Part shown: positions 4,251-17,777 of the stretch, one piece after another
How the letters are laid out: every line of letters starts with the position of its first letter
Numbering within the stretch: position 1 is the first letter of the stretch
Assembly: GCA_029865885.1 (NCBI GenBank)
Contig: JARXAK010000108.1
Coordinates: 1 to 36,689, forward strand
Direction of reading: 5' to 3'
DNA from: Rhizobium sp.
GTDB lineage: Bacteria > Pseudomonadota > Alphaproteobacteria > Rhizobiales > Rhizobiaceae
Length of the DNA: 36,689 bases
Made by a program: the position numbers and the translations under genes
The notes under the pieces: generated by a model
What the model saw: the letters and a program-made list of their open reading frames with translations, nothing else
Told to the model about the DNA's origin: nothing
The model's database searches: none

Positions 4251-6041
4251 TCAGTCCTTCTTCGGCTGCGACACGACGCGCAGTGCGAGTTCGCGAAGCT
4301 GCGTCGGGGTGGCCGGCGACGGGGCGTTCATCAGCAGGTCCTGGGCCTGCTGGTTCATCGGGAAGAGCGAGATCTCGCGCAGGTTCTTCGCGCCGACCAA
4401 GAGCATGACCACGCGGTCGATGCCGAAGGCGCAGCCGCCATGCGGAGGCGCACCGTACTGGAAGGCACGGTACATGCCGCCGAAGCGTTCCTCGACGTCG
4501 TCCTTCGACAGGCCGACCAGTTCAAACGCCTTGACCATCAGTTCCGGCGACTGGTTACGGATCGAGCCCGAGGCGATTTCGAAGCCGTTGCAGACGGCGT
4601 CATACTGATAGGCCTTGAGCGTCAGCGGATCCTGCGTTTCCAGCGCCTCCAGGCCGCCCTGCGGCATCGAGAAGGGGTTGTGGGCGAAGTCGATCTTCTT
4701 TTCTTCCTCGTTGTATTCGTAGAAGGGGAAGTCGACGATCCAGCACATTTCGAAACGGTCGCGATCGACGAGGTTCAGTTCCTCGCCGGCGCGGGTGCGG
4801 GCTTCACCGGCAAACTTGTAGAACTTGGCCGGATCGCCGGCAACGAAGAAGGCAGCGTCGCCCGCTTCGAGACCGAGCTGCTGACGGATCGCTTCCGTGC
4901 GCTCTTCGCCGATGTTCTTGGCGAGCGGGCCGGAGCCGGCGATCTTGCCGTCCTCTTCCTTCCAGAAGATATAGCCGAGGCCCGGCTGACCGGTGCCTTG
5001 AGCCCAGGCATTCATGCGGTCGCAGAAGGCTCTGGAACCGCCGGTCTTGGCCGGAATTGCCCAGATCTCGACCTTCGGGTTCGACGCAATCATGCCGGCG
5101 AAGACCTTGAAGCCCGAGTCGCGGAAATGATCGGTGACGCCCTGCATGACGATCGGGTTGCGCAGATCCGGCTTGTCGGAGCCATATTTGCGGATCGCGA
5201 CATCATAAGGAATGCGCGGCCATTCCTTGGTGACCGGCTTGCCTTCGGCGAACTGCTCGAAGACCGAGGTCATCATCGGCTCCATCGTCTGCCAGATGTC
5301 TTCCTGGGTGACGAAGCTCATCTCCACGTCGAGCTGGTAGAATTCGCCCGGCAGACGGTCGGCGCGCGGGTCTTCGTCGCGGAAGCAGGGCGCGATCTGG
5401 AAGTAGCGGTCGAAGCCGGCGACCATCAACAACTGCTTGTACTGCTGCGGCGCCTGGGGCAGCGCGAAGAACTTGCCTTCGTGGATGCGGCTCGGCACCA
5501 GGAAGTCACGCGCGCCTTCCGGCGACGAGGCCGTCAGGATCGGCGTCGTGTATTCGGCAAAGCCGGCAGCGGCCATGCCCGTGCGCATCGACGAGATGAT
5601 CTGGGTGCGCTTGACGATGTTCTTGTGCAGAGTATCGCGACGCAGGTCGAGGAAGCGATACTTCAGGCGCACGTCTTCGGGATAATCCGGCTCGCCGAAG
5701 ACCGGCAGCGGCAATTCCTTGGCAGCCGAGAGAACCTCGATTTCCTGGGCATAAAGCTCGATTTCGCCGGTTGCCATCGCCTTGTTGGTGGTCTCTTCCG
5801 AGCGCGCCTTGACGAGACCATCGATGCGGATGACCCATTCGCCACGCACGGTTTCGGCCAGCTTGAAAGCCGGGCTATCCGGATCGGCAACGACCTGGGT
5901 GATGCCATAGTGATCGCGCAGGTCGATGAAGAGCACGCCGCCATGGTCACGGACACGATGGACCCAACCCGAGAGGCGGACGGTCTGACCGACGTCGGAC
6001 TTGCGAAGAGCGGCACAGGTGTGGCTGCGGTAACGATGCAT
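4251..6041 (-). CDS. aspS: aspartate-tRNA ligase (596 aa)
   Basis: AspRS charges tRNA with aspartate in the cytoplasm. The length is typical of bacterial AspRS carrying the inserted GAD domain. Visible parts are the N-terminal OB-fold anticodon-binding domain (residues 1-105, including [19 protein letters not shown]), class II motif 2 around [10 protein letters not shown] (220-229) and motif 3 [13 protein letters not shown] (GIDR ends at 543). The ATG at 6041 gives the usual rhizobial start [18 protein letters not shown]; an upstream in-frame start at 6143 adds a non-conserved leader and is rejected. His33 in RDHGG matches the histidine reported in AspRS enzymes that also charge tRNA-Asn. Together with the usual alphaproteobacterial reliance on GatCAB, this makes a non-discriminating enzyme plausible; that is inference. 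Confidence 0.97.
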
Positions 6042-6452
6042 GATCAGGTATCCCGAATGTGACGGTCGAAAAGGCACCTCGAAACGGGCGCGCGACCGAT
6101 AGAAAATCGGGCGGAAAAGCGCATGGTGTGGCTGATTTGTCAAGGCTGGGTGGTGGTGGGGCAGAGCCGAGGTAGTATCTCAGGTTAGGTGGAGGGCCTG
6201 GCCAACAGAGAAGGCTGCGGCGAATTGCAGGCAATTTAAGCGCAAAAGACGAGAGGGACCCGAAAAGATCGGTCCGCTGATGAGCGTTCTTGCCCCTGGC
6301 GGACCTCACACTGCCTCTTAAGCTGAAGCAGATCGCTGACAAAGTGGATTTACCTACTGCGTTTTTGTGTTGCTTAAATTGTGTACCGGTGTGCGTTGGG
6401 CGAAATATCCTGCATCTCTCGCGAGGATTGCATCTCATCAAATGGGGGTAAA
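6042..6452. other. intergenic region between aspS and the defence-like genes
   Basis: This 411-bp divergent spacer holds the aspS promoter region on its left and the promoter region of the 6453 gene on its right. I see no convincing ORF, tRNA or long repeat. From about 6340 the sequence becomes visibly AT-richer, which may mark the left edge of acquired DNA. Confidence 0.5.
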
Positions 6453-7106
6453 ATGCTGGACGACAAAAACCGCCGCCTGATAATGGATCGGCTTGGCGGG
6501 GCGGTGGATGCCCTTGTAGCAGACTTATACTCAGGAAAAACCGACGGCGTCAGTGTTGTGCAGGAGGCTGAGATCACGTCACGCTTGTGCCAGCGGCTTG
6601 AAGACAAACTGGATAACTCGCCGGCAGGGGACTATGTGTTTCGAGTGATCGCTCAGTCACTGCCGGATCGCGGACCCAACTCGATGGAGAAGCTTTTCGG
6701 CGCTGACATCTTCTTGTCGATATCGCTTGATGGGCCAGGTGGCTTTGACAAAGGGATTTTCATCCAGGCGAAATATGACCGCAACATCGACCGCAACGAA
6801 CTGAAAGGTGCTTGCCGCCGCATGGAGGCAATAGCAGATCGTCAGGGCGTCTACGTCTGGGTATATGAACCCAATGGCGTGAAGGTACTGTCATCGCACC
6901 AAGTGAGACAGATGAAGCATAATTCTCTGGCCGGAATCCAACCACGTACGACGACGGGTTTCACAGGGCGTATCTTGGATTGTTATGCAGGCAGTCGAGC
7001 TTGGGGAATTCCTTCTACTGGCAACCGGCGAAAGATGGTTGCTGAACGCCTCCGCGAAGTGAGAGCGAGCAATCTCCTGGACATAAAACTAAAAAAAATG
7101 GATTGA
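6453..7106 (+). CDS. PD-(D/E)XK nuclease-like protein, candidate defence effector (217 aa)
   Basis: I do not recognise a named family. The sequence fits the restriction-endonuclease-like fold: Glu40 in an early helix (QEAEITSRLCQRLEDKL), then GAD (83-85), then FIQAK with Gln105 and Lys107. That is the E...D...QxK arrangement of Mrr-type and other PD-(D/E)XK nucleases. A helix and a strand follow (ACRRMEAIADRQGVYVWVY), as usual in that fold. The ATG at 6453 is chosen because GGGGGTAAA directly precedes it; an upstream start at 6381 lacks such a site. The gene is AT-richer than its flanks and sits 43 nt before the HEPN-type gene in the same orientation, so the two probably form an operon. Nuclease activity is inferred from motif spacing only. 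Confidence 0.6.
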   Translation: MLDDKNRRLIMDRLGGAVDALVADLYSGKTDGVSVVQEAEITSRLCQRLEDKLDNSPAGDYVFRVIAQSLPDRGPNSMEKLFGADIFLSISLDGPGGFDKGIFIQAKYDRNIDRNELKGACRRMEAIADRQGVYVWVYEPNGVKVLSSHQVRQMKHNSLAGIQPRTTTGFTGRILDCYAGSRAWGIPSTGNRRKMVAERLREVRASNLLDIKLKKMD

Positions 7107-7149: not shown

Positions 7150-8178
7150 ATGCTTGTCGATATTTTTGCTCGCCGATACGAAGGAAGCCAGCTTCGTGAT
7201 GCGTTCGAGGAGCGGGACAGCCGCATGCTTGTCCAGTCTTTCCGTATCTTGGCAGAGGACCTATCGCCCTACTACATCGATGGCAATGAAAATCCTGCAT
7301 CGGTCAGCTACTGGACGACGCTTGAAAGCAGCCTGTCACGCGAGCTTGGCGTGAAAGAACTCTCCAGACACTGGTCATCTTATACAACCAACGGAAGATT
7401 TCAGACGTTCAAAAACACACTGCTAACGGTCTGCGAAACGTGGCTGACCCAGGTCCCTACCGGCTCACCGGATACCTATATAAAGGAACGCTTGAGCCTC
7501 ATAGAACTTGGCTTCCGGGCGAAGGAAACCGAAATTGCAGCAATGTATGCGAGGGACATATCGGACGGCGAGAAGCTATTTGCCTCGCTTAAGCGCCCGG
7601 GACTGAGATTGCCCGGAAATCCAGAAGACGGTGCCCGCGCTCGACGCGCTGTGCGAACAAAGGTATTTGAAACTGCGGTAGACGAATTAAACACTCGCTT
7701 CCGCCAAGCCAAATATCCTTTGAATTACCATAACGGCTTCATTCAAATAGTGACCGACGATCTCGTACAGATCGAGGTTGAGACGCCATTCTGGGCTCTT
7801 CTTGCAGCACCGCAATGGAAAAACGTAGATGTCGACATGAAAGAGGCGCTAGACCTCCGCGACAGTGACGGCAGGGACCCTGCATTTTATGCGGCGCGGG
7901 CGCTGGAAAGCACGATCAAGATCATCTCCGACACCAAAGGATGGACGCACGGCAAAGAGAAGGGGGCTCACAACTATATTGATAATCTCGGCTCGAAGAC
8001 AAATGCCTTCTTAATTCCCTGGGAAAGCGCCTTGATCAAAGACTTCTTCACCCACGTTCGAAATCCATTCGGGCATGGGGCGGGAAGCTCAACCATGCCG
8101 TCGCTGACAAGACCGCAAACAGAATGGGCAATCGAGTTCAGTATGAGCTGGATAAAGAGCCTCATAAGGCGCATGTGA
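7150..8178 (+). CDS. HEPN/abortive-infection (AbiJ-like) protein (342 aa)
   Basis: The C-terminal third resembles the Abi C-terminal/HEPN fold. A helix (ARALESTIKIISDTKG) is followed by KGAHNYIDNLG and then HVRNPFGHGAG, in which R304 and H309 form the R-x4-H motif of HEPN ribonucleases. The N-terminal part (MLVDIFARRYEGSQLRDAFEE, then a long helical region) looks like an AbiJ-type N-terminal sensor domain, though I am less sure of that. There is no signal or membrane segment, so it should act in the cytoplasm, probably as an RNA-targeting toxin in phage defence. The ATG at 7150 lacks a strong ribosome site; translation may depend on the gene upstream, 43 nt away. Base composition is lower in GC than the core genes, which suggests transfer. 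Confidence 0.65.
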   Translation: MLVDIFARRYEGSQLRDAFEERDSRMLVQSFRILAEDLSPYYIDGNENPASVSYWTTLESSLSRELGVKELSRHWSSYTTNGRFQTFKNTLLTVCETWLTQVPTGSPDTYIKERLSLIELGFRAKETEIAAMYARDISDGEKLFASLKRPGLRLPGNPEDGARARRAVRTKVFETAVDELNTRFRQAKYPLNYHNGFIQIVTDDLVQIEVETPFWALLAAPQWKNVDVDMKEALDLRDSDGRDPAFYAARALESTIKIISDTKGWTHGKEKGAHNYIDNLGSKTNAFLIPWESALIKDFFTHVRNPFGHGAGSSTMPSLTRPQTEWAIEFSMSWIKSLIRRM

Positions 8179-8221: not shown

Positions 8222-8247
8222 CGCAATGTCTCCTGTTGGCGCAAACC
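8222..8247. repeat. 26-bp exact direct repeat, copy 1
   Basis: The sequence beginning CGCAATGTCTCCTG is identical over 26 bp to 9199-9224. In both places it sits just beyond the 3' end of a truncated tetR fragment (copies A and B). The sequence to its left differs between the two copies, so 8222 is a junction. Confidence 0.85.
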
Positions 8248-8264
8248 AGTCCACCCCACCCCCC

Positions 8265-8451
8265 TCACCCCGGCAAAAGCACACTCGCCAGATCCAGCGG
8301 CGCTGCAAACGGCTCGTGACCCGTGCCGCCGTCGCGCTTTCGCTTACCGTCTATCATCAGATGCGCGTGGCCGTGGATCTGGGACCAGACGAGCTGTTCG
8401 ACGGCAGCCCTGCCCTCCGGCGTGTCACGCTTCAGGCGTTTCGCCACCGGC
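8265..8451 (-). pseudogene. tetR 3'-end fragment, copy A
   Basis: The minus strand encodes the last ~60 residues of a TetR-family protein, from PVAKRLKRDTPEGRAAVEQL to ASVLLPG and a stop at 8265-8267. It aligns without gaps to 17175-17361 of the intact tetR at about 85% identity by eye. Homology stops abruptly at 8451 within the codons for LPVA. The DNA-binding domain, the middle of the gene and any promoter are missing, so it cannot be functional. It lies between the HEPN-type gene and the mazEF cassette. Confidence 0.85.
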
Positions 8452-8480
8452 CAATTGCGGTCATTGACCGTCGACGAAAT

Positions 8481-8505
8481 GGTCGCGAAAAACCTAACAT
8501 TCGCG
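8481..8505 (+). repeat. 25-bp inverted repeat, left arm, flanking mazEF
   Basis: This arm starts GGTCGCGAAAAACC and matches the reverse complement of 9147-9171 at 23 of 25 positions (differences at the 7th and 12th bases). The pair encloses the toxin-antitoxin genes. No matching target-site duplication is visible next to the arms. Confidence 0.85.
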
Positions 8506-8532
8506 CTGTTCGTGACCAGAGCCAAAATCATT

Positions 8533-8571
8533 AGGTAGCGCGCAACCAATGTGCTAAGGTAGCGCGCAACC
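8533..8571 (+). promoter_or_regulatory. paired operator upstream of mazE
   Basis: AGGTAGCGCGCAACC occurs twice, at 8533-8547 and 8557-8571, with start points 24 bp apart. Each copy is a near-palindrome (GGT-A-GCG/CGC-A-ACC). The second copy ends 4 nt before the ribosome site of mazE. The layout fits autoregulation by the MazE-MazF complex; binding is inferred. Confidence 0.65.
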
Positions 8572-8585
8572 TGATGGAGGATGCG

Positions 8586-8810
8586 ATGCCGAGACCCAAG
8601 AGCGCCGATGACGGCCTGACCAAGTTTCAACGCTACCGGCAACAGCAGCAGCACCGGGGCATGAAGCAACTGCGCATTTGGGTGCCGGACCCTCACAGGC
8701 CCGAATTTGCCGCCGAGGCCAAGCGGCAAGGTCTGCTCTTGCGCGGCCTTCCCGAGGAGGCCGAAGCACTGGATTTCATCGCGGCTGCTACTGAATGGCC
8801 GGAATCGTGA
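8586..8810 (+). CDS. antitoxin MazE family protein, DUF3018 type (74 aa)
   Basis: This is the antitoxin of a type II pair; it should bind and inhibit the downstream MazF-like RNase. The start MPRPKSADDGLTKFQRYRQ, followed by KQLRIWVPDP and a C-terminal EEAEALDFIAAATEWPE, is characteristic of DUF3018 antitoxins found next to PemK/MazF toxins. The ATG at 8586 is chosen over one at 8574 because GGAGG (8576-8580) lies 5 nt before it. The toxin gene starts within its last codons (16-nt overlap). The N-terminal part probably binds the paired operator at 8533-8571. Confidence 0.88.
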   Translation: MPRPKSADDGLTKFQRYRQQQQHRGMKQLRIWVPDPHRPEFAAEAKRQGLLLRGLPEEAEALDFIAAATEWPES

Positions 8811-9133
8811 AAAGAGGCGATCTCATCACGGTTTCGGCGCAGGGCGATTATGGAAAACCGCGCCCGGCGATCGTCATTCAATCTGATTATCTCAATGCGG
8901 CAGACAGCGTGCTGGTCGTTTTGCTCACCAGCACCATGGCTGATGCCCCGCTTTATCGGCTCACTGTCGAGCCAACGGCGGGGAACGGCCTCAACGTGGT
9001 TTCACAGGTCATGGTGGATAAGGTTATGGCCTATCCGCGCGCCAAATGCGGCCCGGTGATCGGTCATCTTTCCGGTGCCAATATGCTGGCTCTCAACAAC
9101 ATGCTTTCGGTAATGATCGGCCTTGCCGACTGA
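8795..9133 (+). CDS. type II toxin, PemK/MazF family (112 aa)
   Basis: MazF-type toxins are sequence-specific endoribonucleases that cleave mRNA and stop growth when the antitoxin is lost. The family signature is clear: KRGDLITVSAQGDYGKPRPA near the N-terminus (beta-strand and RNA-binding loop), then VLLTSTMADAPLYRLTVEP and QVMVDKVMAYP. The length is normal and no key segment is missing. It overlaps mazE by 16 nt, typical of coupled translation. A GTG at 8807 giving VKRGDL is an alternative start that matches many relatives. The pair lies between the 25-bp inverted repeats and between tetR fragments A and B. Confidence 0.92.
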   Translation: MAGIVKRGDLITVSAQGDYGKPRPAIVIQSDYLNAADSVLVVLLTSTMADAPLYRLTVEPTAGNGLNVVSQVMVDKVMAYPRAKCGPVIGHLSGANMLALNNMLSVMIGLAD

Positions 9134-9146
9134 CGGCGATATTTGT

Positions 9147-9171
9147 CGCGAATGTTAGGATTTTTGCGACC
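9147..9171 (-). repeat. 25-bp inverted repeat, right arm, flanking mazEF
   Basis: This is the partner of 8481-8505 (23 of 25 positions match in reverse complement). It begins 13 nt after the mazF stop codon. The next 50 bp contain two further weakly similar units (see the findings). Confidence 0.85.
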
Positions 9172-9198
9172 TCGCACAATAGGGAGTTTTGCGGCAGT

Positions 9199-9224
9199 CG
9201 CAATGTCTCCTGTTGGCGCAAACC
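9199..9224. repeat. 26-bp exact direct repeat, copy 2
   Basis: Identical to 8222-8247. It lies 7 bp beyond the stop codon of tetR fragment B, whereas copy 1 lies 17 bp beyond fragment A; copy A carries about 10 extra bases in between. Confidence 0.85.
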
Positions 9225-9231
9225 GCCCCCC

Positions 9232-9470
9232 TCACTCCGGCAAAAGCACACTCGCCAGATCCAGCGGCGGCGCAAACGGCCCGTGACCCGTTCCGCCCTG
9301 CCGCTTTTGCCTGCCGTCGATCATCAGATGGGCGTGGCCGTCGATCGTCGACCAGACGAGCTGTTCGACGGCCGCCCTGCCCTCCGGCGTTTCGCGCTTC
9401 AGGCGTCGTGCCACCGGCAACGAGATTTCCTCAAGCACCGCATGGGCGGCATTTGCTGACGGGCCCGAGC
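9232..9470 (-). pseudogene. tetR 3'-end fragment, copy B
   Basis: The minus strand encodes the last ~78 residues of the TetR protein, from GPSANAAHAVLEEISLPVA to ASVLLPE and a stop at 9232-9234. It is collinear with 17175-17413 of the intact gene and extends about 50 bp further into the gene than copy A. Upstream of 9470 on the coding strand the similarity ends. There is no DNA-binding domain and no promoter. It separates the mazEF cassette from the nitroreductase-marR cassette. Confidence 0.85.
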
Positions 9471-9633
9471 ATGCAGATCCGCCGATGATCGGAATCGGCC
9501 CAAAACCGACGACCAGCATCAGCGGATAGCCTTAGCTCGGCTTCACCGAACCAGCTGTCAGCGCTTGCTACAGCCGCGCAACCGGGAGCAGCTGCCTCCG
9601 AGACGCATTGTCCAAATCAACCGTTATTTGACT

Positions 9634-9673
9634 TTGGTTCGATGTCGCACTATATAGTTCGATATCGGACCAA
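9634..9673 (+). promoter_or_regulatory. promoter/operator of the nitroreductase-marR operon
   Basis: Two 14-bp arms, TTGGTTCGATGTCG (9634-9647) and CGATATCGGACCAA (9660-9673), are inverted repeats with 12 of 14 matches around a TATATAG core. The same stretch also reads as a direct repeat TTCGATRTCG at 9638 and 9658, 20 bp apart (two helical turns). It abuts the ribosome site of the first gene. It probably binds the MarR protein encoded second in the operon; that link is inference. Confidence 0.6.
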
Positions 9674-9684
9674 AGGAGATGGCG

Positions 9685-10833
9685 ATGAAATTGACACGGC
9701 GCAAGATGATTTTCCTTGTTGGCGGCGGGGCTGTTCTGGCAGCCGGTGGGGCCTTCGGATACGCGGCGACACGCATGCCGCAAACGGCTTACCTCCCTTG
9801 GCAACGCGCGGGCGGCTATGAGGACCCGCGGATGCGGGCCCTGTCATGGGCGCTTCTTGCCCCGAACCCGCACAATCGCCAGCCGTGGCTGGCGGATGTG
9901 TCCGAGGACGGTGCGATCACGCTGCATACGGATACTGACCGCCTCTTGCCACACACCGATCCCTTCAACCGGCAGATCGTGATCGGTCTGGGGTGTTTTC
10001 TGGAAGTGCTGCGGATGGCCGCAGCAGAAGATGGCTATCGCGCCGCCATGACGCTTTTTCCGCAGGGCAGCAGCGCCACGGCGCTTGACCAACGCCCCAT
10101 CGCGCGCATCACCCTGACAGCGGATCCGACGGTTAAGCGCGATCCCCTCTTCGCAAATGTGCCTGCCCGGCGCTCCAACAAGGAACCGTTCGACATGAGC
10201 CGCCCGCTCGCACCCGACATGCTGACGCAGATGGCTGCGGCAGCCAGCAACGGCACGCGGTTCGGAGGCACCATCGACCCGGCGGAAACGGCCAAATTGC
10301 GCGCGTTGACGCGTGAAGCGCTTCGCATCGAGGTCGAGACGCCGCACACCTATCAGGAGAGCGTCGATCTGTTCCGCATAGGACGCCGGGAAGTGGATGC
10401 AAACCCTGATGGCATCGACTTTTCGGGACCACTGTTTGAAACGATGCACCTGACAGGTATGTTCAGCCGTGACATGGCGTCCGACCCGACGAGTTTCGCC
10501 TTCAAGTCCGGCATGGACGCGATCTATGCGAATGCCGATACCGCGATGGGACATGTCTGGCTGGTCACCGCCGACAACAGCCGCGAAACGCAGATCGCCA
10601 CGGGCGCGGACTGGCTGCGCGTCAACCTTGCGGCAACGGCTCTGGGCCTCGGGTTCCAGCCCCTCAGCCAGGCCTTGCAGGAGTTTCCGGAGATGGCTGG
10701 GCCTTACGGCCAAGTGCATGAACGCCTTGCACCGGACGGGGGCACGGTTCAAATGCTGTCGCGCATCGGCTATGGTCCGGTTGTCGGAAACAGCCCGCGT
10801 TGGCCTTTGGAGAGCAGGATCATGAATGTCTGA
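9685..10833 (+). CDS. Tat-exported nitroreductase-family protein (382 aa)
   Basis: Nitroreductase-fold proteins bind FMN and reduce nitro- or other electron-poor compounds; this one resembles the longer Acg-like branch. The N-terminus MKLTRRKMIFLVGGGAVLA has the twin-arginine motif and hydrophobic stretch of a Tat signal, so it should be exported folded. Family segments include LSWALLAPNPHNRQPW (FMN phosphate site), VPARRSNKEPFDMSRPL and a C-terminal LRVNLAATALGLGFQPLSQ. The second ATG (9685) is preferred over 9679 because AAGGAG touches 9679 but is 6 nt from 9685. It overlaps the marR start by 8 nt. The physiological substrate is unknown. Confidence 0.82.
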   Translation: MKLTRRKMIFLVGGGAVLAAGGAFGYAATRMPQTAYLPWQRAGGYEDPRMRALSWALLAPNPHNRQPWLADVSEDGAITLHTDTDRLLPHTDPFNRQIVIGLGCFLEVLRMAAAEDGYRAAMTLFPQGSSATALDQRPIARITLTADPTVKRDPLFANVPARRSNKEPFDMSRPLAPDMLTQMAAAASNGTRFGGTIDPAETAKLRALTREALRIEVETPHTYQESVDLFRIGRREVDANPDGIDFSGPLFETMHLTGMFSRDMASDPTSFAFKSGMDAIYANADTAMGHVWLVTADNSRETQIATGADWLRVNLAATALGLGFQPLSQALQEFPEMAGPYGQVHERLAPDGGTVQMLSRIGYGPVVGNSPRWPLESRIMNV

Positions 10834-11281
10834 AAGCGCAATGCCCGACTACTTCCGGCTCTTCAACGAAATCGGCATCATCGGGCAGCTTTCACGCAGC
10901 CTGCTGGAGGCCCGGTTGCCGCCGGGCTTCGTCGCAGCGCAATTTTATGTGTTGAATCATTTGGTCCGCGTGGGCGATGGCCGCACGCCTCTTGCCATAG
11001 CCCGCGCCTTTCAGGTGCCCAAGACATCGATGACGCACTCGCTGGCCGTTCTGGAACAGGCGGGCCTGATCGAGATCCGCAAGAACCCTGGGGATGGCCG
11101 ATCAAAACTGGTTCACATCACGGATGCAGGGCGACAGTTCCGGCAGGATGCGATCGACGCACTCGCACCCGATCTCAAACGGATCGCAGCCGCCATTCCC
11201 CCCGACCACGTTGCGCGCTTGCTGCCGGATCTCGAAGTGTTGCGGAAATTCCTCGATACAGACCGTGACGCCTCACCATAG
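10826..11281 (+). CDS. MarR-family transcriptional regulator (151 aa)
   Basis: A small dimeric winged-helix repressor. The helix-turn-helix is visible as PLAIARAFQVPKTSMTHSLA with the wing following (GLIEIRKNPGDGRSKLVHIT), flanked by N- and C-terminal dimerisation helices; the length is normal. It overlaps the nitroreductase gene by 8 nt, so the two are translationally coupled. The likely target is the doubled palindromic site at 9634-9673 in front of the operon. MarR proteins often respond to phenolic or oxidising compounds, which fits control of a reductase, but the effector cannot be read here. Confidence 0.9.
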   Translation: MSESAMPDYFRLFNEIGIIGQLSRSLLEARLPPGFVAAQFYVLNHLVRVGDGRTPLAIARAFQVPKTSMTHSLAVLEQAGLIEIRKNPGDGRSKLVHITDAGRQFRQDAIDALAPDLKRIAAAIPPDHVARLLPDLEVLRKFLDTDRDASP

Positions 11282-11453
11282 GCTGCGGCGCTTTCAATAG
11301 GCTGGGGGCAAGCCATGAATGCAAGGTTCCTGGCGAAATTGCCGATTGCGCGGCCCTGTAGGCCCCGCCTCCCACACGTTCAGCCTGCAAGTGAATGACG
11401 CCGCTCCAGGATGCGTTTGGCAAATCCTGCATGTGTGGTGAGTCCGCTTGAGA
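11282..11453. other. non-coding stretch after marR
   Basis: I see no gene here. Short ORFs in several frames lack ribosome sites or family resemblance. The stretch joins the end of marR to tetR fragment C. Confidence 0.4.
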
Positions 11454-11677
11454 GGCCGCTTGCCGGCGAACAACAGATGCGCATGGCCATGGACCTGCGA
11501 CCAGACCAGCGGCTCGACAGCCGCCCTGCCCTCCGGCGTGTCCAGCTTCATGCGTCTTGCCACCGGAGCCGAAATTTCCTCGATCTCCGCATGGGCGGCA
11601 TTGGCGGGCGGCTCGCGGCAAAGGCGAGATAACCGCGCGAGACGACGCGCAGCTGTTCGACGGGATCGCCTGACGCT
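11454..11677 (-). pseudogene. tetR internal fragment, copy C, with 67-bp deletion
   Basis: The minus strand matches the middle and part of the C-terminal region of the intact tetR (about 17255-17537). Recognisable peptides are EQLRVVSRGYLAFA, then, in another frame, MARRMKLDTPEGRAAVEPL and HGHAHLLFAGK. Between the shared CACCGG (11561) and CAGCTGTTC (11650) copy C is 67 bp shorter than the intact gene, a frameshifting deletion. The extreme 3' end, present in copies A and B, is absent. It is the most decayed of the fragments and separates the nitroreductase-marR cassette from the autotransporter. Confidence 0.8.
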
Positions 11678-11722
11678 GATGTTGTTACCAAAACGTTACA
11701 CATTTGGCTTGCTTTTAACAAA

Positions 11723-11740
11723 CCCCTCAGAATTGAGGGG
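11723..11740 (-). terminator. hairpin upstream of the autotransporter
   Basis: A perfect 7-bp stem, CCCCTCA and TGAGGGG, encloses a 4-nt loop. On the minus strand it is followed by TTTGTTAAAA, so it could terminate transcription coming leftward. On the plus strand no T-run follows. It lies in an AT-rich stretch 60 bp before the autotransporter start and might instead be a leader structure. Confidence 0.4.
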
Positions 11741-11800
11741 AGGTAGCTAGCGCAGAACTTGAATATCTGCTCATATCCAGATGAGTAAATATGCGGGCGA

Positions 11801-14800
11801 ATGAGTACACTTGCCAATGCGCACGTCAGGCTCCGCTCAAATCAGATGGAACTTTGTGACTTGATGACGCTCTCAGCAACAGCAACCATTGGTTCGTCAC
11901 TTGCTAGACAGTCTCAAAGGAGCATTTTCTCAAGAAGATTGCATTCCACCACGGCTCTAGCAACAGGAATGCTGGCCACAATCTTAGTAATTACTCCATC
12001 ACATTCTCGCGCAGAAGTAGTTGCGCTTGGCAACAACGAAGTGGCTTCTACACCGGTCACACTCACGGCGACCAGGAGCCAATTCGACGTGGCAACTGGC
12101 GGCACCGCGACGCAGAGCGGTGCGATTGGCGAGGATTCACCCGGCCGTCCGCTGGAAAAGATCGGCGCCGGAACCCTGTTGCTGACAGGCACCAATACCT
12201 ACACTGGAACAACGACAATCAGCGGCGGAACCCTGGGCGTGTCCGGAAACAGTATCCCAGACCTGGGCGCCGTTATCCTGAGCAATGCGTCTGGCGTTCA
12301 GCTTATTGTCTCGGGGACGGAAACGATCGGGTCGCTGAGCGGCGGCGGCCCCATCGGGGGCAACGTGGTGATCGAGAACCAGGGCTCAATCCCAGGCCGG
12401 TTGATCACCGGCGGCGACAATAGCGCAACGACGTTTTCAGGCACGATCTCCGGCGCCGGCGGCCTGACCAAGATCGGCAGCGGCATCTTCACCTTATCGG
12501 GCACCACAGGGATGACGAGCCTGGGCTTTCAGGCACGTCTTTCAAGCAACAGCTACACCGGCGAGACGCGGGTCGAAGCAGGCACGCTCAAGCTCGATGC
12601 CAATGGCGCACTTCCGAGCCAATCCGGCATTGTCGTCCTGAACGGTGCGACTTTGGATTTGGGAACGAGCCAGCAGACGACCCGTTCGATCGGCGGCGTT
12701 GCAGCCGGCGGCATCCTGACCGGGGCTGCCAGCAGCGGTCTTACTCTGATCGCGGATGCGGATCAGAGTATCGCCGGCGCATCCTTCACCGGGAGCGGCA
12801 TACTGACCAAGCAAGGAACCGGCACGCTGACAATCGCCGGCGACATGACCTATTCTGGCTTCATCTTCATCGAGGCAGGCAAAATCGCCCTCACCGGCAA
12901 TAACACGCTGACGAGAACCATCCAGGGAAGCGGCACACTCGGCCTCGGTTCAAGCGGTGCGGCAGGCGGCGCCACAGGGAGCATCAGCGGCAACGGGCTG
13001 ACCATCGAATATGCTGATGGCATCACCATCGCGTCGTCGATCAGCAGCGCGTCCAGTGTCAACAACGTCAAGCTCAAGGTTGCGAACGGCACCGCAACCC
13101 AGTCCGGCTTCATGTCGGGCGGGCTCGAAAAGATCGGTGCGGGCACGCTCGTCCTGACCGGAAGTGTGGGCGGTCAGACCGCGATGACGATCCGGGAGGG
13201 CGCCCTCAATGTCCGGGGTGCAGCCTCGCTCGGCCCGGCTGCGGGCGCGACACAGGTTCTCTCCGGTGCAGCCCTGCAGATCCAGGGCGGCTTCTCAACC
13301 AATGTCGCACCGTTGACGCTGAACGGCCAAGGGATCGCCAACGATGGCGCCCTGCGCAACATATCCGGTTTCAACTCCTATAACGGCGCCATCTCGCTGG
13401 GGAGCGCCACCCGGATCAATTCGGACAGTGGCCGACTTGATATCGTCGACATCATCTCGGGCACCAATACAAACCTGACCTTTGGCGGTGCCGGCGATAT
13501 CAGCGTCAACAACGCGATCAGGATCGGCACGGGCTCATTGACCAAGGACGGGGCGGGAACCCTGCTCCTAAATGGCGTGAATACCTACACTGGCACCACC
13601 AGCATCAATGGCGGCCAGATGTATGCCACCAGCGGCAACGCGATCTCCGACACGGGGGCTGTTGTGCTGGCCGATGCCGCTGGCGTGATTTTCGGGGTCT
13701 CGTCCGCAGAAACGATCGGCTCGCTCAGTGGTGGCGGAATGACGGGCGGCCATGTCTTTCTCGACACCCGCCTGACCACGGGCGGGAACAACACCAGCAC
13801 CACCTATGCAGGCAGGATAACAGGCGTCAGTGGCTTGACGAAGGTCGGCACAGGTACGCTCACGCTATCGCGGGTCACGGAATATTCCGGCGACACCATC
13901 ATCAGCGGCGGCGTCCTGCAGCTCGGCGACGGAGGCACCACTGGTGGGCTGAACAGCAGCACCAACGTCATCAACAACGCGACGATCACCTTCAATCGCT
14001 CTGATGATTTCACGATTTCGAACATCATCTCCGGCACCGGCGGCCTGACAAAGCAGGGCGCGGGCATTCTGACACTGACGGGTGCAAACACCTACACGGG
14101 CGCAACCCGCATTGAAGGCGGAACCCTGAAACTCGGCGCCGGGGGATCGCTCAGCAGCGCGTCGCTGATCACGGTCTCCGCCGGCGCGACGTTCGACTTT
14201 GGCAGTCTTGCCAATCCGACCATCGGATCGCTCGGCGGAACTGGCGGCTCCCTCACGGGTGGCTCGGGCAATCTGACCATTCAGATGGCCAGCGACAGCA
14301 CCGAAACCTATTCCGGGACCAACCCGTTCGGCGGCTTCAGCAGCCTCATCATCGGCGGCAACGGCACGCTCAATCTGACCGGCGATATCAACAGCACCAA
14401 GAACATCGCGATCAACGGCGGCACATTGAGCCTGTCGGGCAACAACACGCTGACGGGCGGCATCACCGTGAACGGCAAGCTCGTGCTCGGTTCGAGCGGC
14501 GCGGCGGGCGGGACGGGCAATCGCATCACGACGACCGGCTCGGTCATCGACTATGCCAACACCGTCAACAACGCGACACCGATCACCATCAACTCGAACA
14601 CGACCCAATTCCAGGTTCTGACCGGCTCGGCGACGCAAAGCGGCGCCATCGACGAATTGGGCGGGGCACGCCCGTTCGAGAAAATCGGCGCCGGCACGCT
14701 GACGCTTTCCGCCACCAACACCTATACCGGCACCACCCTTGTCAGCGCTGGCAAACTGCTGGTCAACGGGTCGCTCTCCTCGTCCGGCGTGACCGTGGCA

Positions 14801-16315
14801 AATGGAGCCGTCTTTGGCGGCAATGCCTCGATATCAAGCCTCACCTTGCAAAGCGGGGCATCTCTCTCTCCGGGCAACTCGATTGGGACGATCAACATAT
14901 CGGGTAACTTGACCCTGAATTCTGGGTCGACAACCATCATCGAAATCCAACAGGCGCAATCCGACCGGATTGTCGTCGGCGGGACTGCTGCAGTTGCCGG
15001 CACGCTGCAACTGGTCGCCTTGGGTGGTCCATACAGCTTCGGAACGCCCTATACGTTTCTCACGGCCACCGGCGGCCTTACCGGCACCTTCGGCACGGTT
15101 TCGACCAATGGCACTTTTGGTCTGGGCGTCACGTCCAACGTGACCTATAACGGCACCAGCGCATCGGTGACCCTGTCAGCAGGCTCGCTCAGCCAGGTCG
15201 CGAGCAACCTTTCAGCCAACACACCGTCGAACGTCCTGGCCGTTGCAACCGCCATCGACAGAGCCGTGGCCAATGGCGCCAATTCCTCGGCCTTCTTCCA
15301 GGTCTACAATCAGCCGACACAGGAGACGCTGAGAAACGCCGTGAATTCTCTGTCCGGCGAAGTGCATGCCACGGCAAGCGCCATGAGCTTCAAGGTCTCC
15401 GACCAGTTCCTCCGCATCATGTTGAGCCCGCCGGGCACCTCGCAAAAGATAAAGGTCGAGACCGACGAGGGCACGGCCTTCTGGAGCGCTGGCTTCGGTC
15501 AGGCCGGCAGGACGGATGGCGATGCCGCCACCGGCTCTTCGCGGCAGAGCCATTCCGATTGGAATATCGCCTTCGGCATGGATGCGCCGGTCTATGACGA
15601 TACGATCGTCGGCTTTGCCGTATCCGCAGGCTCGTCCCAGTCCTCCCTCGCCTCCAACCTCGGAAGCGCGGATGCCGACGTCCTGCAGGTGGGCGTCTAC
15701 GGCACAACAAAATTCGATCGCCTGTCCTTGGGCTTGGCCGGATCCTGGTCGAACCTGAATGTCGATACCAGCCGCGCCGTACCCACCCTGGGTTCGGGTA
15801 TGGTCGAGGCCGACTATCGGACCAACACCTGGAGCGGCCGCGCCGAAGCCGCCTATGCGGCCGTGGCATTGACGGAGAGCTTCACGGTGTCCCCGTTTGC
15901 CGCCCTTCAGGCCCATCTTGCCCATACGCCGGACTTCGTTGAATCGGTAAACGGAGGAAGCGCCGCCCATGCGCTGTCGGTGAACGACAACGACAATCGT
16001 TTCGTTCGCAGCGAAGTGGGTGCGCGCATCGATCTGACCTCGATCGGCGCAGACGGTGCAGGCGTGGTGTACGCCACTGCCGCCTGGGCACATTACTTCG
16101 TAAACGATGCCAGCGTCTCGGCAGCCCTTGTCGGTCTGAGCGGCTCGAATTTCACCGTCGAGGGGGCTCAATACTCGCAAAACAGCGCTCTCCTGGGCCT
16201 CGGCGCGAACATCGCCCTCACCCCCAGCATGACCTTCGCAGCAGAACTCAACGCGGAGATCGGCGCTCGTCAGGCGATGTACGGCGGCAATGCGAAGCTT
16301 CGGGTGTCGTTCTAG
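11801..16315 (+). CDS. autotransporter with PATR beta-helix passenger (1504 aa)
   Basis: A type Va autotransporter: the passenger is exposed on the surface through its own C-terminal outer-membrane barrel. An extended N-terminal signal ends at SHSRA (about residue 71). The passenger is a long beta-helix with about nine passenger-associated repeats of the form K-x-G-x-GTL-x-L-x-G-x-NTYTG-x-T-x-I-x-GG-x-L, for example near residues 121-146. The barrel occupies roughly the last 275 residues (from GTAFWSAGFGQAGRTDGD) and ends in LRVSF with the terminal Phe typical of barrel assembly. The start is uncertain: ATG 11801 has no strong ribosome site, and 11846 or 11864 are alternatives. The first 250 bp are AT-richer than the rest. 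Adhesion is the usual role; no protease motif is seen. Confidence 0.9.
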   Translation: MSTLANAHVRLRSNQMELCDLMTLSATATIGSSLARQSQRSIFSRRLHSTTALATGMLATILVITPSHSRAEVVALGNNEVASTPVTLTATRSQFDVATGGTATQSGAIGEDSPGRPLEKIGAGTLLLTGTNTYTGTTTISGGTLGVSGNSIPDLGAVILSNASGVQLIVSGTETIGSLSGGGPIGGNVVIENQGSIPGRLITGGDNSATTFSGTISGAGGLTKIGSGIFTLSGTTGMTSLGFQARLSSNSYTGETRVEAGTLKLDANGALPSQSGIVVLNGATLDLGTSQQTTRSIGGVAAGGILTGAASSGLTLIADADQSIAGASFTGSGILTKQGTGTLTIAGDMTYSGFIFIEAGKIALTGNNTLTRTIQGSGTLGLGSSGAAGGATGSISGNGLTIEYADGITIASSISSASSVNNVKLKVANGTATQSGFMSGGLEKIGAGTLVLTGSVGGQTAMTIREGALNVRGAASLGPAAGATQVLSGAALQIQGGFSTNVAPLTLNGQGIANDGALRNISGFNSYNGAISLGSATRINSDSGRLDIVDIISGTNTNLTFGGAGDISVNNAIRIGTGSLTKDGAGTLLLNGVNTYTGTTSINGGQMYATSGNAISDTGAVVLADAAGVIFGVSSAETIGSLSGGGMTGGHVFLDTRLTTGGNNTSTTYAGRITGVSGLTKVGTGTLTLSRVTEYSGDTIISGGVLQLGDGGTTGGLNSSTNVINNATITFNRSDDFTISNIISGTGGLTKQGAGILTLTGANTYTGATRIEGGTLKLGAGGSLSSASLITVSAGATFDFGSLANPTIGSLGGTGGSLTGGSGNLTIQMASDSTETYSGTNPFGGFSSLIIGGNGTLNLTGDINSTKNIAINGGTLSLSGNNTLTGGITVNGKLVLGSSGAAGGTGNRITTTGSVIDYANTVNNATPITINSNTTQFQVLTGSATQSGAIDELGGARPFEKIGAGTLTLSATNTYTGTTLVSAGKLLVNGSLSSSGVTVANGAVFGGNASISSLTLQSGASLSPGNSIGTINISGNLTLNSGSTTIIEIQQAQSDRIVVGGTAAVAGTLQLVALGGPYSFGTPYTFLTATGGLTGTFGTVSTNGTFGLGVTSNVTYNGTSASVTLSAGSLSQVASNLSANTPSNVLAVATAIDRAVANGANSSAFFQVYNQPTQETLRNAVNSLSGEVHATASAMSFKVSDQFLRIMLSPPGTSQKIKVETDEGTAFWSAGFGQAGRTDGDAATGSSRQSHSDWNIAFGMDAPVYDDTIVGFAVSAGSSQSSLASNLGSADADVLQVGVYGTTKFDRLSLGLAGSWSNLNVDTSRAVPTLGSGMVEADYRTNTWSGRAEAAYAAVALTESFTVSPFAALQAHLAHTPDFVESVNGGSAAHALSVNDNDNRFVRSEVGARIDLTSIGADGAGVVYATAAWAHYFVNDASVSAALVGLSGSNFTVEGAQYSQNSALLGLGANIALTPSMTFAAELNAEIGARQAMYGGNAKLRVSF

Positions 16316-16353
16316 ACCGCCGTTTCCACGGCACCGCCTGCCAGTTGAATTCT

Positions 16354-17007
16354 ATGGATAAAAGCATGCGGAGTGCAGGCAAGACCATGATGAACCGAGC
16401 AATCGCCTCCCCCGTGAAGCTCGCGGCAATTTCCGCGCTTTTGGCAATGATCGCCGTTGCGCCGAGCTTTGCGCAGAAGTCCGCACGAGAGGTCAAGGCG
16501 CCAGAGGCAGCTCAAGCGGCGACGACCCCCGTCCCCGCTGATCCCGACATGACGACGGCAGCTTTCGGTGATTGGGTCTTGCGGTGCATTCGGGTCAAGC
16601 CGGAGGAGACCGACGAACGCCTGTGCGAGGTCAGCCAAAGCTTGATGATCGAGGGTGGCCAGGGCACCATTGCCCAGCTTGCAATCGGTCGGCGAGTGGA
16701 GGGGCAGCCTTTGTTGCTGACGGCCGTATTGCCAAACAACGTTGGCTTTCCGTCCCTGGTGCGCCTGCTCGTCGAAGAAAACGACCCGGAACCGCTGGAG
16801 CTGGCCTGGACACGCTGCATCCCAGGCGCCTGCGTCGCCCAGATCGAGGTGAGCGCGTCGGCACTGGAACGGCTGACGGGCCGCGATTCCGGCGGTCAAC
16901 TGGGTTTCAAAGATTCAAACGCGAATGATGTTGTCCTGCCGATATCGCTGCGTGGGCTCGCCCAAGCCATCGACGCACTGTCCCTCGGCAACGTAAACGA
17001 CGGCTGA
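16354..17007 (+). CDS. invasion-associated locus B (IalB) family protein (217 aa)
   Basis: A periplasmic/secreted protein of the IalB family (named after the Bartonella erythrocyte-invasion factor but widespread in Rhizobiales, where its role is unclear). A signal peptide is visible (LAAISALLAMIAVAPSFA before QK). The family core follows: AAFGDWVLRCIR, ERLCEVSQSLMIEGG, LLTAVLPNNVGF, and LAWTRCIPGACVAQIEV with its Cys pair. The gene begins 38 bp after the autotransporter stop and probably shares its transcript. The start is not certain: ATGs at 16366, 16387 and 16390 are alternatives that keep the signal peptide. Confidence 0.85.
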   Translation: MDKSMRSAGKTMMNRAIASPVKLAAISALLAMIAVAPSFAQKSAREVKAPEAAQAATTPVPADPDMTTAAFGDWVLRCIRVKPEETDERLCEVSQSLMIEGGQGTIAQLAIGRRVEGQPLLLTAVLPNNVGFPSLVRLLVEENDPEPLELAWTRCIPGACVAQIEVSASALERLTGRDSGGQLGFKDSNANDVVLPISLRGLAQAIDALSLGNVNDG

Positions 17008-17174
17008 TGAAGTGCGTGCAATGACCTGGAGGGTGTTCGCTCAATACGAAACACCTGTTTCATGGTGCTGGACTGAAGGTTTTACTGACGTTGGAATGAT
17101 CAGTTTGCTTTTGGGCAATCGATAACAGTTGCCGGGCGGCAAGATTGACGGCGCGAAGCAGACCCGCTCGCCCC

Positions 17175-17777
17175 TCAATCCGGCAGCAACACACTTGCCA
17201 GATCGAGCGGCGCGACGAAGGGCTCATAACCACTGCCGCCCTCCCGCTGCAGCTTGCCGTCGATCATCAGATGCGCATGGCCGTGGATCTGGGACCAGAC
17301 GAGCTGTTCGACGGCGGCCCTGCCCTCCGGCGTGTCGCGCTTCAGGCGTCGTGCCACCGGCAACGAGATTTCCTCGAGCACGGCATGCGCCGCGTTTGCC
17401 GGGGGGCCGAGCGCCGGGTCTTCCCAGTCGAGGCGGTTGGCGGTGAACATCAAGCGGAAGAGATGCGGCCGGCCCGTCGCAAAGGCTAGGTAACCGCGGG
17501 CGGCGGCGCGCAGCTGTTCTGCCGGATCATCCGACGCTTCCGCCATGGCGGAGCGCATGGAGGTAGCAAAGAGGCGGAACCCCTCTGTGGCGAAGGCGGT
17601 CAGCAGATGCCTGAGCGTCGGGAAGTGATGTTCGGGGGCGGCATGGGACACGCCGACGCGAGCGGCGAGCTTGCGCAGCGTCAGGCCTTCGAGGCCGTGC
17701 TCTTCCAGCATTTCGAGCCCGGTGTCGATCAGCGCCTGGCGCAGGTCGCCGTGGTGATAGGATTTCTGTCTTGCCAT
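17175..17777 (-). CDS. TetR/AcrR-family repressor (200 aa), the intact copy
   Basis: A dimeric repressor. The N-terminal helix-turn-helix domain is complete (HHGDLRQALIDTGLEMLEEH, then LTLRKLAARVGVSHAAPEHH), followed by a TetR C-terminal ligand domain of the WHG-like type ending ASVLLPD. It is divergent from the membrane-protein operon at 17877, and two 15-bp inverted sites lie between them, so it probably represses itself and that operon. Its 3' region (17175-17537) is the parent-like sequence of the three headless fragments A, B and C further left. They differ from it by about 15%, so they are not fresh duplicates. Confidence 0.93.
   Translation of the reverse strand: MARQKSYHHGDLRQALIDTGLEMLEEHGLEGLTLRKLAARVGVSHAAPEHHFPTLRHLLTAFATEGFRLFATSMRSAMAEASDDPAEQLRAAARGYLAFATGRPHLFRLMFTANRLDWEDPALGPPANAAHAVLEEISLPVARRLKRDTPEGRAAVEQLVWSQIHGHAHLMIDGKLQREGGSGYEPFVAPLDLASVLLPD

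Follow-up and report, generated by a model that had tools for sequence, protein, structure and literature searches.

Serial tetR 3′-end fragments among the cargo of a tetR-aspS insertion hotspot in Rhizobium

When prophage 21 or e14 resides in icd, a displaced, alternative 3′ end of the host gene is left beyond the insert, and both an integrase and a fixed crossover are required. Orphan Rhs/CDI fragments are toxin tips accompanied by immunity genes. How integrase-free hotspots add cargo, as opposed to merely swapping it, is not settled.

Two described systems come closest. In the type VI secretion (T6SS) effector arrays of Vibrio cholerae, an incoming module settles next to a conserved anchor and shifts the 3′ end of the old gene and its neighbor downstream, generating a series (Kirchberger et al., 2017, PMC5361080). 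That study proposes a process akin to homology-facilitated illegitimate recombination, finds most of the intermediates in other strains, and mentions orphan Rhs/CDI 3′ regions. Many hotspots lack integrases and show fast cargo turnover between fixed core genes together with a recombination signal in the flanking genes; Oliveira et al. (2017, PMC5635113) propose that the core genes on either side undergo double recombination.

We analyzed a window of 36,689 nucleotides (the whole stretch of DNA under study) from Rhizobium sp., in which three 3′ fragments of a tetR gene, which we call tails, lie in series behind one intact copy, with distinct cargo between them. As in the T6SS arrays of PMC5361080, serial displaced 3′ fragments occur at a conserved anchor. 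In those arrays the effector itself is displaced and immunity genes are kept, whereas here the regulator gene is a mere border, several tails are broken by a frameshift or stop codon, and the cargo is unrelated, comprising defense, toxin-antitoxin, enzyme, transporter, and autotransporter genes. As in the hotspots of PMC5635113, the two core genes stay the same and the cargo between them differs; growth that leaves gene ends behind is not known to be part of that account. Strings of 3′-end fragments behind one intact gene also characterize orphan Rhs/CDI regions, but the fragments at our locus are ends of a regulator gene. Unlike the prophages in icd, neither an integrase nor a fixed crossover was found at tetR. 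Our literature search, whose coverage left out most subscription journals, returned no account of the tetR-aspS locus or of core-gene tail arrays.

Variable cargo between tetR and aspS

The borders of the interval and the cargo genes of the window are as follows, in order from tetR to aspS.

17175..17777, minus strand: intact tetR, 200 amino acids, TetR_N and TetR_C_33 domains (Pfam, blastn); left border of the hotspot
16345..17007, plus strand: cargo 4, IalB-family protein (Pfam)
11801..16315, plus strand: cargo 4, autotransporter of 1504 amino acids (Pfam)
10826..11281, plus strand: cargo 3, MarR regulator (Pfam)
9679..10833, plus strand: cargo 3, nitroreductase-like protein, Pfam score under the cut-off (19.9 versus 23.5 bits)
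8795..9133, plus strand: cargo 2, MazF/PemK toxin (Pfam), with a putative short antitoxin-like ORF, read from the sequence, immediately upstream
7150..8178, plus strand: cargo 1, AbiJ_NTD4 protein (Pfam)
6381..7106, plus strand: cargo 1, partner ORF with no Pfam family and no PADLOC match
4251..6143, minus strand: aspS, aspartyl-tRNA synthetase, conserved right border of the hotspot; the listed ORF starts at an upstream TTG

An earlier reading of this DNA from its sequence only had named these cargo units. Its descriptions held, with two reservations: the nitroreductase fell below threshold, and the ORF at 6381–7106, read as a nuclease, belongs to no Pfam family. PADLOC gave no match for the AbiJ protein, its partner ORF, or MazF of the window. 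A palindrome at 9632–9675, with overlapping 26-nt arms that are 88% complementary, adjoins the nitroreductase gene upstream and is possibly a regulator site.

TetR proteins 84–94% identical to that of the window occur in Rhizobium rosettiformans, R. wuzhouense, Peteryoungia aggregata, P. algae, and Agrobacterium albertimagni, among others. aspS lies downstream of tetR in 29 of 30 named loci, in the window, and in four further genus loci with an intact gene. Our sample comprises one genome per species, draft assemblies, and short tails. We excluded from the interval counts L065, where aspS is out of reach, and L066, at 43% identity, and defined 24 close loci: the 23 genus genomes with at least 84% TetR identity, and L053. 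G024 (62% TetR identity, 9.6 kb gap, no tail) has the same genus code and was not scored as a close copy. Several genomes carry both a locus and a genome label (L036 = G003; L040 = G009; L038 = G040; L041 = G045; L047 = G035; L059 = G024); W denotes the window, W_A, W_B, and W_C its tails, and L036_t and the like the tail of the locus named.

The distance from the tetR stop to the aspS start is 141–164 bp in four of the ten distant relatives (L057, 164; L058, 155; L062, 141; L064, 149). Since the remaining six (L055, L056, L059, L060, L061, and L063) have gaps of 1.1–9.6 kb, the hotspot extends past the close group, all 24 loci of which have gaps of 1,014 to 11,133 bp. The interval ORFs of relatives sort into many unrelated clusters, and cargo mostly differs between genomes. 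Among the contents are a C-5 methylase with a partner, DUF4238 and DUF1349 proteins, LysE, a trypsin-like protease, AraC with a short-chain dehydrogenase, MFS with MarR, and, behind the G018 tail, LysR. An Exo_endo_phos protein belongs to a cluster that spans four genomes, with one member Pfam-scanned.

Some of this cargo has features of its own. In Rhizobium sp. Root274 the cargo is a single-gene, PARIS-like AriA-AriB fusion (L042:10697–12310). PDC-S39, a candidate defense protein, lies in the gap of two distant genomes (L040:11689–13584 and L063:10699–12585). The 9.6 kb gap of L059 (Ciceribacter) holds several ORFs of one cluster, which also takes in a gap ORF of L060 and L061.

We scanned 39 interval ORFs with Pfam (nine from the window and 30 from relatives, with small ORFs and several cluster mates outside the scan). 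None encoded a tyrosine or serine integrase, and two encoded insertion sequence transposases: IS110 in L038 and an IS3-like rve protein in L068. There is no tRNA or tmRNA in the window, so none at the hotspot border, and an Rfam scan of the window gave zero matches at the gathering threshold. The tetR-aspS interval is an insertion hotspot in which no integrase was detected. This agrees with the sequence-only reading in so far as it had proposed a tetR-anchored cargo hotspot that does not depend on a tRNA and had expected variable cargo beyond the 3′ end of tetR in relatives, where we found gaps of 1.0–11.1 kb with mostly different contents.

Tails in the window and in related genomes

The tails of the window are the following.

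8265..8451, minus strand: tail A, the last 187 nt of tetR including the stop; it meets the mazEF unit on its 5′ side at the same nucleotide as in two other species, L036 and L040
9232..9470, minus strand: tail B, the last ~238 nt of tetR including the stop (blastn, alignment)
11455..11677, minus strand: tail C, decayed, in two blocks (11455–11611 and 11604–11677), with a 67-nt internal deletion and the last 74 nt missing

A blastn search of the whole genome with the intact gene identified five matching places, all on the contig of the window: the gene itself, 9232–9470 (84%), 8270–8451 (86%), 11455–11611 (82%), and 11604–11677 (78%). Chance is excluded as an explanation, since the matches have E values of 3e-67 to 4e-10 in one genome and equivalent tails lie beside the orthologous gene in other species. 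The AbiJ_NTD4 gene is to the left of A, MazF/PemK between A and B, the nitroreductase and MarR genes between B and C, and the autotransporter and IalB genes between C and the intact gene. Whole-genome blastn, alignment, and Pfam thus confirmed three minus-strand tails between cargo units, as first read from the sequence. Tails A and B end at the same stop codon as the intact gene, again as read, and are followed by a short G-rich sequence; all three tails lack the DNA-binding domain. Copy C is a real fragment, but it is more decayed than had been claimed.

Isolated tetR 3′ fragments are also present in L036, L038, L040, L041, L047, and one G018 contig. Counting the window, tails therefore occur in seven of the 24 genus genomes that carry a tail or a close copy of the gene, namely in six of the 23 loci with a close intact gene and in the G018 contig, where ~2.2 kb upstream of the tail the contig ends before any tetR. 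Every tail is in the orientation of the intact gene and lacks the DNA-binding domain. Where both flanks are known, each tail lies between two cargo units: mazEF and MarR-MFS in L036, mazEF and PDC-S39 in L040, SnoaL and DUF4238 in L041, IS110 and ORFs without a Pfam match (where scanned) in L038, and SnoaL and other ORFs, including an inverted mazEF, in L047. Several of these tails are broken, by an in-frame TGA (L041), a frameshifting length change (L036), or deletions and loss of the stop (L047). The ten distant loci contained no tails. We treated hits with E values of 0.001–0.007 in L050, L052, L056, L059, L070 (two), and W (one) as chance; these were mostly short, <76% identical, or on the opposite strand.

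As a control, we scanned 60 stretches elsewhere in three genus genomes (40 in G028, 16 in G009, and four in G003; 1.2 Mb with overlaps, 1,054 ORFs). The scan yielded 46 partial local matches, seven of them labeled as tails at 70.5–78.2% identity. Since all seven lay within another ORF, the 1.2 Mb contained no isolated tail. The same type of scan with the tetR ORF gave tail matches of 83.5–98.2% in W (A and B), L038, L040, L041, and L047, and picked up the L036 tail through a false ORF. No ORF covered the tails of L038, L040, L041, and L047; those of W overlapped mechanical ORFs of 137 and 154 amino acids.

The duplication is one-sided: duplicated aspS heads (5′ ends) gave no hits in 31 intervals, and a scan for copies of the region preceding tetR matched at two places, both short and both in L059. 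Relatives also display intermediate stages: the order is tetR, mazEF, tail, other cargo in L036 and L040, and of the 23 genus genomes whose close gene copy is intact, 17 have a cargo gap of at least 1 kb with no detectable tail.

In gene coordinates, the tails start at ~240 (C), 366 (B), 417 (A, L036, and L040), 426 (L041), 451 (L047), 491 (L038), and ~505 (G018). The L047 start corresponds, by eye, to a 25-nt deletion relative to L041, with which it shares SnoaL cargo and a nearby junction. These positions bear on the possibility that the array is a stack of integrative elements that used the 3′ end of tetR as attachment site, carried a replacement tail as in icd, and have since lost their integrases. 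As such elements would predict, all tails lie downstream in the same orientation, the end of the gene is missing only from C, and the starts of two cargo-tail classes are near each other (417 and 426). Against this stand at least six different start points, from ~240 to ~505, with no fixed crossover, and the lack of a tyrosine or serine integrase among the 39 scanned ORFs. In addition, the gene was unmatched in 50,697 phage records and in an IMG/VR pattern scan, and plasmids gave solely distant, partial matches of 10–24%. We regard such a stack as improbable. An element that targets the 3′ end of the gene, one of the routes offered in the sequence-only reading, is disfavored because the tails start at different nucleotides.

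Ancestry of the tails and possible mobility of the cassettes

The tails could instead descend from a tandem array of tetR paralogues that decayed and was later split by cargo insertions. Serial order and shared orientation fit such an origin. In a DNA-level ranking of seven tails that excluded W_C and L071_t, two (L036_t and L038_t) were closest to the intact gene of their own host, and AU tests are compatible with host-tail pairing, none of six host pairs being rejected (p 0.216–0.715). The other five (W_A, W_B, L040_t, L041_t, and L047_t) were closer to the intact gene of another genome, as was W_C in a separate comparison (81.1% to L040 versus 78.9% to W). Also against a tandem array, none of the 35 intervals searched contained a second full-length tetR copy, the four distant relatives with 141–164 bp gaps have one gene, and one cargo-tail junction is followed by cargo that changes from species to species. 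We therefore give a tandem origin very little credence.

Protein-level comparison with 106 partly redundant references ranked the host gene 15th for W_A, 7th for W_B, 29th for L040_t, and 8th for L041_t; L038_t tied for first. The best match of W_A was a metagenomic intact TetR (P0001). Four tails share one base not present in 25 aligned intact genes, and P0001 has the corresponding lysine. As the intact metagenomic proteins P0001 and P0011 both have lysine at this place, we dropped the idea of a separate lineage of tails. A tree of tails and genes (31 rows, 193 columns; W_C, L038_t, and L071_t left out) had no starred branch, the 193 columns being too few, and the AU tests rejected none of eight groupings.

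One tail is mosaic. The first 83 columns of L036_t are 98.8% identical to the gene of its own host, and the last 110 are closest to L048 (90.9%) and include five of the six extra nucleotides of the L048 clade. The permutation p value was 0.003 for L036_t and 0.020–0.106 for the other five tails (nominal, six tails tested). Along tetR and aspS, permutation tests gave p = 0.020 for the last 193 columns of tetR and 0.396 and 0.218 for two 5′ tetR windows, and p = 0.010 for the aspS window nearest the cargo and 0.03–0.05 for two inner aspS windows (nominal, 11 windows). The signal at the tetR end and on the cargo side of aspS is suggestive of recombination. We used permutation because in a pairwise mosaic search, whose p values we set aside, intact genes gave values as strong as tails. 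Sister-pair divergence profiles along tetR and aspS were too noisy to use, given one genome per species.

We also compared segments of eight intact genes (W, L036, L037, L038, L040, L041, L047, and L067). Over the first 194 nt, W, L036, L037, L038, L047, and L067 are mutually nearest, and over the next 222 columns L053 is nearest to L038 and L067. For the last ~66 nt, five of the eight switch to a nearest gene outside the 194-nt group, with differences of one to a few nucleotides: W to L046, L036 to L043, L037 and L067 to L068, and L038 to L070. L047 is nearest L037, within the group, and L040 and L041 had no stable neighbor or no clear change.

Two cargo units of the window adjoin repeats.

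8222..8247, minus strand: dispersed repeat terminus TTTGCGCCAACAGGAGACATTGCG, directly after tail A, at the start of the AbiJ cassette
8481..8505, no strand: arm 1 of the inverted repeat of the mazEF unit (repeat search)
9140..9232, minus strand: dispersed repeat block, directly after tail B, at the left end of the mazEF unit
9147..9171, no strand: arm 2 of the inverted repeat of the mazEF unit (repeat search)

The dispersed repeat, ~60–100 bp long (GCGCCAACAGGAGACATTGCGGCTGCCGCAAAACTCCC...), matches 30 Rhizobiaceae plasmid records, with no listed gene beneath it in the annotated ones shown.

The repeats raise the possibility that mobile cassettes with inverted-repeat ends, such as the mazEF and AbiJ units with their TTTGCGCCAA... 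ends, transposed beside tetR and that the tails are by-products, through adjacent deletions or a very long target duplication. The mazEF unit (8440–9232 in the window), bounded by inverted repeats, is present in eight of 63 genus genomes (including L097, L098, L099, L100, and L101). It lies away from tetR in four (G017, G036, G043, and G040), three with similar flanks, and is inverted inside the hotspot in one, and is thus a possible mobile toxin-antitoxin cassette. An AbiJ cassette 91% identical to that of the window lies at another locus in G008 and begins at the same repeat terminus. In W (twice), L036 (10613), L040 (10608), L047 (11215), and, diverged, L050 (10629), this terminus comes after a tetR or tail stop, and it may be the end of a transposable unit; IS110 in the L038 cargo also fits transposition. 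However, the terminus was not found in L038, in L041, or between B and C in the window, and Pfam and PADLOC detected zero transposases in the mazEF and AbiJ units of the window. We know of no target duplication of 190–240 nt for such elements. Transposition with tails as by-products is, in our judgment, unlikely.

A tblastn search with TetR around five off-site copies of mazEF and AbiJ (~1.5 kb to either side; for G008, 18 kb) detected no tail, indicating that cargo can move without a tail and that most new cargo in the genus left none. The sequence-only reading, in which each event brings a foreign tail, is thus only partly right: it is contradicted by the 17 of 23 loci that have cargo and no tail and by these tail-free cassettes.

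The mazEF-tail junction at 417 coincides to the nucleotide in W, L036, and L040, and the cargo behind it is AbiJ, MarR-MFS, and PDC-S39, respectively. Most simply, the junction would reflect one event common to the three species. The mazEF unit is 92.7% identical between W and L036, 92.9% between W and L040, and 91.1% between L036 and L040; the corresponding values are 90.8, 85.5, and 85.5% for the 5′ part of tetR and 92.1, 90.6, and 92.4% for aspS. The identity of the unit is clearly above that of 5′ tetR in two of three pairs but near that of aspS in all three; the comparison is suggestive of exchange of the unit between lineages.

Proposed recombination in tetR and the record that tails would leave

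On balance, we lean toward homologous recombination that uses tetR as its anchor. Now and then the second junction would be illegitimate and displace the old tail, which could later serve as a second homology arm. DNA from a related strain would enter by homologous recombination with one crossover within tetR. If the second crossover fell in aspS, the old cargo would be swapped out with no trace; such a clean swap fits the commonest state, cargo without a tail. If instead the second junction were illegitimate and inside the resident tetR, the resident 3′ end and the old cargo would be pushed downstream, giving the order intact tetR, new cargo, old tail, old cargo, aspS. Repeated displacement would generate a serial array like that of the window. 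An existing tail would provide a second homology arm, so that cargo before or behind it could be exchanged separately; this second homologous site would account both for a single cargo-tail junction ahead of three kinds of cargo and for the change of affinity within L036_t.

What we observe of this mechanism is the hotspot, the recurrence of tails with differing starts, the foreign affinity of five of seven tails, the one mosaic tail, the shared junction, and the lack of aspS heads in the intervals searched. What we infer is that crossovers took place, in which order events followed one another, that junctions were illegitimate, and how DNA came in, be it by competence, conjugation, transduction, or gene transfer agents. 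Several observations count against displacement, the AU tests among them. Tail C should have been displaced last, yet it has decayed furthest. The L038 tail matches the gene of its own host at 98% identity and could be a plain local duplication around IS110. Finally, the mazEF-tail junction coincides with the end of a unit bounded by inverted repeats, and this fits transposition as well.

A bolder and more doubtful extension is that tails act as portable homology arms. Because gene and tail both match the single tetR of a recipient, cargo with its tail could be added by an ordinary double crossover, and an additive, integron-like array might form without a dedicated enzyme.

Any genome collection can be screened for this signature, in which cargo units are separated by isolated 3′ fragments of a border gene. 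Leftover tails would record additions, hinting at the sequence in which cargo came in, showing where the junctions are, and predicting what cargo is able to move next. Should tails work as homology arms, ordered arrays can arise through plain recombination, and once a tail exists, recombination at such a locus would, if the portable-arm reading is true, be additive rather than replacing.
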